From Xylophilus sp. GOD-11R (GTDB taxonomy: Bacteria > Pseudomonadota > Gammaproteobacteria > Burkholderiales > Burkholderiaceae_C), in NCBI RefSeq assembly GCF_033546935.1, contig NZ_CP137854.1, positions 4,588,001 to 4,652,000 of the forward strand: DNA of 64,000 nt, written 5' to 3'. Both the position numbers and the translations under genes were made by a program. Within the stretch, counting starts at the first letter, position 1, and the number at the start of each line of letters is the position of its first letter. The notes under the pieces were generated by a model that was not told the DNA's origin, did no database searches, and saw only the letters and a program-made list of their open reading frames with translations. Positions 42,771-54,362 of the stretch are shown in pieces.

Positions 42771-43033
42771 TTCTTCTTTTCTTCTCTTTGCCGACGGTGG
42801 AGCTGGGGGCTTGCGCGCCCCCAGACCCGCGGTGACTTTCTTTCCTCGGAAAGAAAGTCACCAAAGAAACGCCAAGACGAGCTCGAGGCTCGGTCGGGCC
42901 ATCGCTTCGCTCGGCCTGGGGAATGTGCCTTCGGGACGCTCTAACGGCAACAGTTTGGACAAGGGTCGATCCAGTGCCTCTGCCCCTGCTTCGCAGGGTC
43001 GGGGCTGAGAGGGTAAGGACAGGCGACCGCACT
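42771..43033. repeat. Left arm of a long inverted repeat
   Basis: This arm starts with pyrimidine tails and the core GTGGAGCTGGGGGC...GCGCCCCCAGACCCGCGGTGA. It goes on through a hairpin GACTTTCTTTCC...GGAAAGAAAGTC and GAGCTCGAGGCTCGGTCGGG and ends at CGACCGCACT (43024-43033). The whole arm recurs in inverted orientation from 43201 onward. The pieces are imperfectly identical, so the duplication is old. The stretch from 42701 to 43418 contains this arm, the spacer and most of the right arm, and no gene. Confidence 0.75.
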
Positions 43034-43200
43034 GAGCACGGTGAGGGGGCCGCGCTGATTCGATCGCCGCGCGCGCTGCGCACCGTGGTCCAGGTCACGC
43101 CTTGATGGCCCACCCGCTTGTGCGCTGCTTCGGGTCGATGTTCGAGCGCCACGCCCAGTATTCCGCCAGGGCACTTCGCATGGCGCCTGCGCGCGCCGCC

Positions 43201-43403
43201 AGTGCGGTCGCCTGTTCTTACCCTCTCAGCCTTGACCCGCGAAGCGGGGCCATGGCTCTGGATCGACCCTTGTCCAAACTGTTGCCGCTAGAGCGTTCGA
43301 AGGCACATTCCCTAGGCCGAGCGAAGCAATGGCCCGACCGAGCCTCGAGCTCGTCTTCCAGGCAACTTTCTTTGGTGACTTTCTTTTTTGCCAGAAAAGA
43401 AAG
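43201..43403. repeat. Right arm of the inverted repeat, part 1
   Basis: AGTGCGGTCG (43201-43210) is the exact reverse complement of the left arm end at 43024-43033. The homology continues through GGATCGACCCTTGTCCAAAC, CGAGCCTCGAGCTCGTCTTC and the hairpin GACTTTCTTTTTTGCC...AAAGAAAG. It stops at 43403, where the IS110 element begins. The 167-base spacer between the arms (43034-43200) has no gene I can support. Confidence 0.75.
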
Positions 43404-43418
43404 ACACCGTGTTGATCG

Positions 43419-44399
43419 TCAAGCCCTGGCCGAGCAAGCCAGGCTCGGATCGAACGGTTTTCCCGATCGAAGTACGCCAAAAGCGATCGCCAGCAACTTA
43501 TGCATGCACGCCACCAAAACGACCTTGTTGGGTTTGTTCTGCGCCTTCAGACGTTGGCTGAAGGCCTTGATCACCGGGTTGAAGCGGCTGGCCGTCATGG
43601 CCGGGAAGTACAGCGCCTTCTTCAGTTCTCGATGCCCCTGCGCATGCGTGCCGTGATGCTTGTTGAGCGATGTGCCCGACTGCCTGATCAACGGCGAGAC
43701 ACTCGCATACGCCGCCAGCGCCTTGGCCGACTTGAACCGTTCGGGACGTCCGATGTAGGCCAGCAATTGCGCCACCGTCCGCTCTCCAATGCCCGGAATG
43801 CTCTGCAGCAGGCCGTCACGCCTTTGAAGATCGGGATCGTCGTCGATGGTCCGGCGGATCCTGCGCTGGACTTCCTCGATCGATTTCGTGAGCACTTCGA
43901 TCATCTCCTGCAGCGAAGCCTGCACCGCACCGTGCGCCACGTCCAGGCGATTGAGCTCGCTCTGGCGCATCTGCTGCAGCGTGTCCAGTCGCGCCACGAG
44001 TGCCTGCAACTCCCGCACCGCCTTGCTCGGCGCCTCCCACGCCTCAGGCCGCGTCATCCGGCAGAACCTCGCCAGGCTCCTGGCGTCCGCACTGTCGGTC
44101 TTGTTGCGCGTGCCCTCCACCTCGATGAAGCGCTTGACCTTCATCGGGTTGGCTACCGAGACCAGAACACCCCGGTCATGAAGCGCGAGCGCGAGCAGCT
44201 CGTGGTACGTGCCGGTGGCCTCCATGCAGACATGCACCTGCGAGATGCCGCCCGCAACGTGTGCGGCCAACCAGTCGAGCAAGGCCGCACAACCGCCCGC
44301 CGTGTTGGCAAAAACCTTCGTCCTGTACTTGCCCTGTTCATTGAGCAATGCCGCATCGAGCTTGGCCTTGCTGACATCCACGCCCACTTGAGAGTTCAT
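43419..44399 (-). CDS. IS110-family DEDD recombinase (transposase)
   Basis: A 326-residue IS110 transposase. The RuvC-like N-terminal domain starts MNSQVGVDVSKAKLDAAL with the first catalytic Asp; CMEATGTYH holds the Glu and NKTDSADARSLARF the later Asp pair. The C-terminal Tnp20-like domain has the helix-hairpin-helix region LLQSIPGIGERTVAQLLAYI and the conserved serine in ASVSPLIRQSGTSL. The start at 44399 was chosen for the standard N-terminus. It appears intact. The recombinase acts with a structured RNA encoded upstream of it, at the left end of the element. Confidence 0.92.
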   Translation of the reverse strand: MNSQVGVDVSKAKLDAALLNEQGKYRTKVFANTAGGCAALLDWLAAHVAGGISQVHVCMEATGTYHELLALALHDRGVLVSVANPMKVKRFIEVEGTRNKTDSADARSLARFCRMTRPEAWEAPSKAVRELQALVARLDTLQQMRQSELNRLDVAHGAVQASLQEMIEVLTKSIEEVQRRIRRTIDDDPDLQRRDGLLQSIPGIGERTVAQLLAYIGRPERFKSAKALAAYASVSPLIRQSGTSLNKHHGTHAQGHRELKKALYFPAMTASRFNPVIKAFSQRLKAQNKPNKVVLVACMHKLLAIAFGVLRSGKPFDPSLACSARA

Positions 44400-44429
44400 C
44401 GCCGTGACTCCGCAAAAACGCACGCTATC

Positions 44430-44615
44430 CGACTCTCCCAACCTGATACGCGGGGTCAGCCAGCGGCCCGCGCGGGCCGCTGGCGCCCCAAGACACCGTT
44501 CGAGCTACGACGTCGAATCCGTCACCGTGCACCAGTCTTTCTTGCAGGATCTGATCCCAAGTTACCGCACAGGGTCACCGCAACGGGCCTCCTTCGCGCG
44601 AAGGGAAGCTGGCCC
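44430..44615 (-). ncRNA. Candidate bridge RNA of the IS110 element
   Basis: Reading 5'-3' on the minus strand: a hairpin (14-base palindrome, 44591-44604), then GCGGTAACTT (44568-44559) identical to the target left of the insertion plus the CT core. A small stem (44557-44547) follows, and then AAGAAAG (44543-44537), complementary to core plus right target. Next come ACGGTGTCT (44499-44491), identical to the element's right end plus core, a 22-base perfect palindrome (44482-44461), and GTATCAG (44449-44443), complementary to core plus left end. This is the order LTG, RTG, LDG, RDG of the IS621 bridge RNA. Outer limits are approximate. Confidence 0.75.
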
Positions 44616-44627
44616 ACAAGGTATCAG

Positions 44628-44700
44628 TTACCGCGGGTCTGGGGGCGCGCAAGCCCCCAGCTCCACCCTACGAACCAGTAGAAGAAAAGAAAAAAGAAGA
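44628..44700. repeat. Right arm of the inverted repeat, part 2
   Basis: TTACCGCGGGTCTGGGGGCG and the following CCCCCAGCTCCACC with purine tails are the reverse complement of the start of the left arm (42771-42836). This segment continues the arm interrupted at 43403. Joining 43403 to 44628 restores GAAAG-TTACCGCGGG; the left arm has GAAAG-TCACCGCGGG at the same place. The DNA from 44700 to about 44880 is C/A-rich and shows no gene. Confidence 0.75.
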
Positions 44701-54130: not shown

Positions 54131-54362
54131 ACCTACAATTCGCGCGCTGCGTGCATCGGGACGCAGCCGGGTTTGGAAGCCCGAACAACTCACAGACGCA
54201 ACGCTGCAGCTCGCCACCGGCGAGTTGCAGCGTTGCCGTTCGTGCCCCTGTTTATGGCGGCTCGGACAGGAGGACGAAAGTCCTGCCGGTTTGCGCGAGT
54301 TGTCCGGTCTTCCAACCTGCTCGAGCCGCCGCCCTCGTTTGGAAGCGGGTGCGGTGGCCTTT
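54131..54362 (+). ncRNA. Multi-stem structured RNA, phage C4-like
   Basis: Several hairpins are visible in 230 bases without a gene. A small stem CGGG-TTTGGAA-GCCCG covers 54168-54183, and a long hairpin with about 16 paired bases covers 54200-54235. An outer stem GGCGGCTCG (54256-54264) pairs with CGAGCCGCC (54321-54329) and encloses AGGAC-GAAA-GTCCT (54270-54283), a GNRA-type tetraloop. TTGGAAGC occurs twice (from 54173 and 54339). The order of elements resembles what I recall of C4-type antisense RNAs of phages and proteobacteria. The RNA ends just before the small gene at 54388. Confidence 0.45.

Follow-up and report, generated by a model that had tools for sequence, protein, structure and literature searches.

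A predicted bridge RNA with matching target and donor guides in an IS110-group insertion sequence of Xylophilus sp. GOD-11R

The element, its recombinase and its insertion sites

The stretch of DNA analysed here, referred to as the window, comprises 64,000 nucleotides of Xylophilus sp. GOD-11R (contig NZ_CP137854.1, positions 4,588,001 to 4,652,000) and harbours an insertion sequence that lies within a host repeat (Table 1). By its sequence the element is a member of the IS110 group: the recombinase, termed P0001, combines DEDD RuvC-like and Transposase_20 domains with a conserved serine (PF01548, 96.4 bits; PF02371, 87.1 bits). Among PDB sequences, the closest solved relatives of P0001 are the transposases of ISCro4 from Citrobacter rodentium, the best match (278.2 bits, E 7.5e-82), compared at the protein level, and of IS621 from E. 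coli (277.6 bits, E 1.2e-81), both of which align over residues 5-319. The residues D8, E60, D102, D105 and S241 are invariant across six aligned recombinase sequences, and S241 is the likely catalytic serine. The IS1111 trait, a bridge RNA in the right end, is absent: the stop codon is followed by just 15 bp before the right core begins, and the guides sit at the left. Plasmid records compared with the element by blastn gave no match.

Table 1. Features of the insertion sequence, its target repeat and its predicted bridge RNA (window positions unless a genome and contig are given)
Feature	Position	Strand	Remarks
IS110-group insertion sequence	43402..44627	minus	CT core to CT core, 1224 bp
DEDD recombinase P0001	43419..44399	minus	326 aa; PF01548 and PF02371
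Interrupted host repeat, larger part	42797..43401		long inverted arms; remainder at about 44628-44669
Right target half TTCTT	43397..43401	minus	follows core CT
Left target half GCGGTAA	44628..44634	minus	
-35-like TTGACG	43417..43422	minus	right end; from sequence
-10-like TACCTT	44618..44623	minus	left end; from sequence
Predicted bridge RNA	44428..44612	minus	about 185 nt; limits deduced from the promoter-like pair at the junction and the final helix
5' stem-loop of bridge RNA	44587..44609	minus	helix 1, 100% of cells paired
Left target guide (LTG) GCGGTAACT	44560..44568	minus	10/10 counting the next base, T at 44559
Right target guide (RTG) AAGAAAG	44537..44543	minus	7/7 against core and right target
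Target-loop handshake guide AC	44535..44536	minus	complementary to donor positions 6-7 (GT)
Left donor guide (LDG) ACGGTGTCT	44491..44499	minus	9/9 against right end and core
Inner stem-loop of donor-binding loop	44459..44484	minus	26-nt perfect palindrome; from sequence
Right donor guide (RDG) GTATCAG	44443..44449	minus	contiguous 7/7 against core and left end
L002/L165 locus	G000:C1:3163000-3167000		IS110 copy with IS30-like insertion
Bridge RNA remnant L159	G001:C12:100531-100741		ends inside LDG

The genome contains six copies of the element (L001-L006), all within one repeat family. The left junction reads GCGGTAA/CT/GATACC in all six, the right junction ACGGTGT/CT/TTCTTT in the five intact copies. 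These five interrupt GCGGTAA/CT/TTCTTT, and their left flanks diverge beyond the repeat; the CT core is common to target and donor, and further target duplication is lacking, in 5/5 copies tested (of six). A preliminary description of the window had fixed the element ends by the interrupted repeat, and the identical junction bases in five of the six copies uphold this, with the cores corrected to 43402-43403 and 44626-44627 (AG on the plus strand at both). In L002, which has two base differences in its left end, an IS30-like element with ends GGCGGTTTCAAAGACC has taken the place of the right core and the hairpin next to it; beyond this insertion the host repeat continues.

The repeat family measures approximately 600-700 bp and has long inverted arms that end in hairpins, as judged from the sequences of five copies, the arms being read in the window copy, whose outer limits were set by eye. 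The ends of the repeat are the target sites, and both target halves with the core read GCGGTAACTTTCTT. Intact sites of the exact 15-mer GCGGTAACTTTCTTT number 44 in the genome, all still free of the element, and the reversed pattern is found at none. They fall into 15 facing pairs (30 sites), 0.57-0.76 kb apart, and 14 single sites. The repeat family serves as the landing pad of the element and may be MITE-like or terminator-like. As the preliminary description had claimed, the guide addresses a multi-copy family, with 44 exact intact sites plus six occupied ones, and all other insertions of the element likewise sit in the repeat matched by the target guides.

Comparison of the joined flanks of the copies with empty sites of this genome leads to identical element ends. 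With 20-30 nt per side, the joined flanks of four copies each have exact matches at 10 of 30 retrieved site loci and those of the fifth at 19, and with 40 nt per side 8, 8, 8, 0 and 15 loci match, the zero belonging to L005; the retrieved loci represent 30 of the 44 sites but are not 30 independent ones, since neighbouring loci partly overlap and one site may count twice. In the window copy of the repeat the occupied end matches the LTG perfectly, and the other end, GCGGTGACT, has one mismatch to it. A wider pattern, GTNACTTTCTTT, yields 119 intact sites, 51 of them of the GTGAC type, and all six element copies have a GTAAC-type left half. Provided that all 119 intact and six used sites were hit with equal likelihood, the chance of six out of six GTAAC would be about 0.004 with a GTAAC class of 44 + 6 sites and about 0.04 with all 68 non-GTGAC sites assigned to that class, both class sizes being assumptions. 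In six other genomes of the genus, GGTAACTTTCTTT sites number 32 (G002), two (G005), one (G004) and none (three genomes); the reversed control gives 22 in G002, and its 32 sites are therefore less specific.

The six copies might owe their number to duplication, or to gene conversion, of repeat and element together, in which case their agreement in site would say little on targeting. Three copies, the window copy among them, are indeed identical and therefore not fully independent. Moreover, between the two lineages of the element in this genome just 4-5 of the first 201 bases differ, although the 981-bp ORF differs by 14% (two copies deviate from the window lineage at 141 and 143 positions), and L002 joins the ORF of one lineage to two RNA differences typical of the other. 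This near-identity beside a diverged ORF hints at conversion or strong selection, either of which would explain it. Nevertheless, the six left flanks diverge outside the repeat, one and the same site is used by two sequence lineages, and the co-change of guides and partners in other species (see below) is independent of any duplication here; we regard this account of the site agreement as quite unlikely.

Guide matches and the predicted bridge RNA

The untranslated left end of the element contains, on the minus strand, four short sequences that match the target and donor junctions in the order LTG-RTG-LDG-RDG. All four had been claimed before, and each proved exact and in place. Scored as a chain of 9+7+9+7 positions the guides reach 32/32, compared to a mean of 20.2 and a maximum of 25 after dinucleotide shuffling of the left end (2000 rounds), and to a maximum of 27 with 5000 random target/donor pairs taken from the window. 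The chain scoring also bore out their order and strand, and at 32/32 the guides follow the loop order of bottom then top strand of the target, then of the donor.

Guides, fold and model match all place the predicted bridge RNA in the part of the left end that precedes the recombinase gene. A fold computed by RNAalifold from eight left ends, with the guides held unpaired, consists of a 5' stem-loop, a target loop and a donor loop and is similar to that of IS621; the guide loops are obtained only under this constraint, and unconstrained folding of the window RNA is uninformative. In the helices 95.4% of 371 cells are paired, compared to 35.9-44.3% in slid versions of the structure, over which it is favoured as it was derived from the same alignment. 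Double-sided changes occur at 11 of 47 pairs, a number reached by 2/500 shuffles; further pair types, one of five covariation measures, are no better than in shuffles (303/500). Folded alone, the window RNA is not unusually stable (z -1.24). Between LDG and RDG lies the palindrome noted earlier, yet its length is 26 nt rather than 22.

A covariance model was built from the same eight left ends, a copy of the window element among them, and its match at 44421-44625 is thus by construction. The model matches 38 of 89 sources, once each, and 51 have no match at E 0.1. Clade members and copies from this genome, i.e., training sequences or near copies of these, account for 12 matches, again by construction. 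The other 26 are weaker (E 1.2e-6 to 0.06), and each lies immediately upstream of the recombinase of a more distant relative. Within seven genomes of the genus, including that of the window, the model finds the six own copies, the Leaf220 element and one remnant in G001 (L159), a genome in which no recombinase match was obtained; the LTG of this remnant, GCTCCTCCT, agrees by eye with its own left flank at 9/9 positions. Rfam contains no family that matches the element, and four weak matches stay far below the cut-offs.

Over the whole window Rfam yields two matches, a tRNA and a C4 antisense RNA (RF01695, 62.6 bits) at 54250-54336. C4 antisense RNAs belong to phage immunity, and a prophage or satellite may therefore lie near these positions.

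The -35-like TTGACG of the right end and the -10-like TACCTT of the left end come to lie 17 bp apart only when the ends are joined in a circle. Among 14 junctions compared, TTGAC(A/G) and TANNNT occur at the same spacing in all six of the clade to which the window element belongs; of the eight non-clade junctions four have TTGAC at this spacing, two have TTGCAG, and L142 and L071 are without a clear box. The stop codon TGA of the recombinase (43419-43421) lies within TTGACG.

Instead of encoding guides, the internal copies of end and target could be subterminal repeats, bound as DNA by the recombinase with no RNA involved. Sequence matches cannot separate the use of DNA from that of RNA, and to this extent they suit DNA binding sites equally well. 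However, such sites leave unexplained the compensatory changes in the helices, the weak detection of left ends of IS621-like relatives by a model of sequence and structure, the fit of order and strand sense to the IS621 loops and the promoter-like pair arising at the circle junction. We consider DNA binding sites very unlikely and retain the guide RNA as the explanation of the matches.

Related elements and the variation of their guides

A scan of named genomes with the single protein found no relative; with an alignment as query, the best 80 of 297 loci were kept. The ends were assigned by a solver, in which CT pairs close to the recombinase gene are tested by the score of the resulting guide chain. 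Five of the six own copies come out at 32/32, and the copy without a right core (L047) at 26, a score within that copy's own shuffles. Altogether, a solution was found in 34 of 36 loci, and 102 shuffles (three per locus) reached at most 26. Among 24 loci with a solution at 30-37% identity, 16 scored 27 or less, and a score of at least 28 is by itself no proof, since L073 reaches 30 with an implausible solution in which right target and right donor are the same.

Four relatives with solved ends share 63-71% protein identity with the window recombinase: L077 (Comamonadaceae SURF_20; guide chain 31), L078 (beta proteobacterium; 30), L080 (Xylophilus sp. Leaf220; 30) and L083 (Polaromonas; 32). 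Together with the window element they form five of the eight rows of an RNA alignment (A2), from which the guide positions were taken, so that no position was picked by its match. The other three rows were left out of the permutation test, L049 having the same guides as the window and L079 and L084 incomplete right ends. In the five distinct elements guides and partners agree at 42/45 positions for the left target, 34/35 for the right target, 44/45 for the left donor and 35/35 for the right donor. Of the 120 permutations of partners, 8, 1, 120 and 2, respectively, do as well; the left donor is constant in the five elements and thus uninformative. Taken together, the other three partners (both targets and the right donor) reach 111/115 in none of the 120 pairings but the true one.

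The mismatches reside in the LTG of L080 (7/9), the LTG and LDG of L078 (8/9 each) and the RTG of L077 (6/7). In the rows set aside, L084, whose RNA is nearly that of L078, has an LTG match of 7/9 by eye, and L079 one of 9/9, with an extra T that breaks the match of right donor and RDG. Close relatives inserted at sites unmatched by their guides had been named as grounds for refutation; instead, four relatives at other targets carry guides that, by sequence comparison, largely follow the differing targets and right donor ends.

An exact search of the Leaf220 genome for one form of the uninterrupted target found no copy, so that the target of the Leaf220 element is read from its flanks; the contig carries Ns and a duplicated stretch next to the element. 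This contig is also listed, as G003, in the genus of the window genome, and its host is probably a Xylophilus. A further clade member, L081 (a Rubrivivax MAG, 59% identity), retains a recognisable right end ACGGTGTCT; the bridge RNA model gave no match on it, and just an RDG-like 3' part is discernible by eye.

In a tree of 79 proteins (90 minus identical ones), the window element falls into a clade of 11 rows with a support of 100/100, in which every named row belongs to the Burkholderiales apart from L078, classified no further than beta proteobacterium. The RDG of IS621 is discontiguous (A157-U158/C162-G165), with two bases flipped out, and its RTG has four bases, as given in the text of PMC11208158. 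In contrast, the window RDG pairs at 7/7 in the contiguous register and at 6/7 in the best gapped one, and pairing of the IS621 type is not seen. Among 77 classifiable loci 64 have a gapped RDG with the 2-nt interruption of IS621, 11 a contiguous one and two are unclear; these counts are not independent, since several of the loci come from a single genome as near copies of each other. This classification was made after dropping the duplicates L037, L038, L041 and L047, and 35 of 112 loci were without usable ends. Contiguous pairing at 7/7 is found in eight loci: L097 and seven from the clade of the window element, three of which are copies in its own genome. Three contiguous calls at 6/7 (L058, L063, L066) are probably spurious, and some of the 64 gapped loci also reach only 6/7, e.g., L149, whose ends look wrong. 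By eye, L086, L050 and L051/L132 (one locus) appear contiguous as well. On the tree, where L086, L050 and L132 were labelled by eye, contiguous RDGs need two changes; a single origin is also conceivable. Relatives with an IS621-like gapped RDG share approximately 34-47% protein identity with the window recombinase. At least seven copies of one IS621-like relative occur on seven contigs of Klebsiella michiganensis DSM 25444 (L103-L109).

A target-loop handshake guide has been described for IS621 (PMC11208158). In the window element the corresponding AC faces GT of the donor, a combination present in 7/7 clade loci (three are own copies), as opposed to AT/AT in 36 others. Complementarity holds overall in 49 of 57 loci (solver score >=28, RTG >=5, three duplicates dropped). 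The handshake and RDG tallies include some distant loci of doubtful score, of which the claims on the window clade are independent. The donor-loop handshake (GT) pairs with target positions 6-7 (AA) at just one of two bases.

The targets of the relatives with solved ends read (T/G)(C/T)TCC(C/T)CCT or TTTCCCCCT and that of the window element GCGGTAACT, while the left donor is unchanged. The window lineage thus seems, from these sequences, to have switched its target. We lean, by a narrow margin of confidence, towards a clade that combines a contiguous 7-base RDG, a 7-base RTG and a co-evolved handshake of AC for GT with a natural rewrite of the target loop, from the (T/G)(C/T)TCC(T/C)CCT-type to GCGGTAACT under a near-constant LDG, where the direction of the rewrite is inferred.

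That the hairpin repeats are recognised by their shape, with the guide match a coincidence or captured from the repeat, is suggested by the hairpin-rich target, which resembles those of REP-using IS110 elements (PMC11208160), but appears extremely improbable: capture would imply that the piece was split and inverted in part (the LTG has the same sense, the RTG is a reverse complement), the left halves are GCGGTAA in 6/6 copies, as the LTG reads, despite 51 GTGAC sites among the 119 of GTNACTTTCTTT, none of the six copies resides in a GTGAC- or GTTAC-type stem, and the guides of the relatives match other targets, hairpins or otherwise.

Proposed transposition cycle and its implications

Recombination of an excised circle, guided by a bridge RNA and carried out by the DEDD/serine recombinase, is almost certainly the process that explains the element, as far as sequence can tell. 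The ends, the guide matches, the site use of the copies, the co-change of guides and partners in relatives and the conserved fold constitute its basis in sequence, and excision, transcription, RNP formation and catalysis are adopted by analogy with IS621. The cycle would proceed as follows. The element would excise as a circle, as IS621 does, and the joined right and left ends would create a sigma70-like promoter (TTGACG-17-TACCTT) that drives transcription of the bridge RNA. The target loop, with LTG and RTG, would pair with GCGGTAA-CT-TTCTT in the ends of the host repeat, and the donor loop, with LDG and RDG, with the circle junction ACGGTGT-CT-GATAC. Strand exchange would then occur at the common CT, aided by the target-loop handshake guide.

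The bridge RNA mechanism of IS110 elements has been known since 2024, and the window element is a well-supported new example of this RNA-guided mechanism in the group. A bridge RNA is proven for IS621, and other IS110 elements use REP sequences as targets (PMC11208160). By its sequence, the window element shares with IS621 the recombinase domains, the CT core, a left-end RNA with a 5' stem-loop and two guide loops in the same order, the junction promoter, the target-loop handshake guide and a repetitive target. The IS621 architecture ascribed to it in the preliminary description thus stands for the left-end RNA, the order and the loops, but not for the RTG, with seven paired bases compared to four in IS621, nor for the RDG, contiguous rather than split by two flipped-out bases; its donor ACGGTGT-CT-GATAC and its target also differ from those of IS621. 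The seekRNA of ISEc21, an element of IS110 type (PMC11187229), similarly is an upstream noncoding RNA with a bottom-strand before a top-strand match and a junction promoter, and the natural redirection of the ISEc21 relative ISMch6 is comparable to the target-loop change considered here. That account differs in stressing an RNA of 74 nt, and in the target of ISEc21, a conserved stretch of coding sequence in certain IS3 elements.

Among the matches listed for IS110, bridge RNA, seekRNA and Xylophilus, at the level of titles and abstract openings, none describes the window element. The contiguous RDG and the target switch may be new points, and contiguous RDGs may already be on record in figures or supplements of IS110 bridge RNA papers.

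For this element the bridge RNA code was readable from the raw genome, with target, donor and free sites named in advance, and this reading withstood comparison with six insertions and with four elements related to it. The contiguous RDG represents a natural alternative geometry, which structural studies of IS621 and ISCro4 and their use in genome engineering could put to the test, and a clade with one donor and different targets amounts to a natural reprogramming series. If this holds true, the loop-wise reprogramming of bridge RNAs would already have been accomplished by nature.
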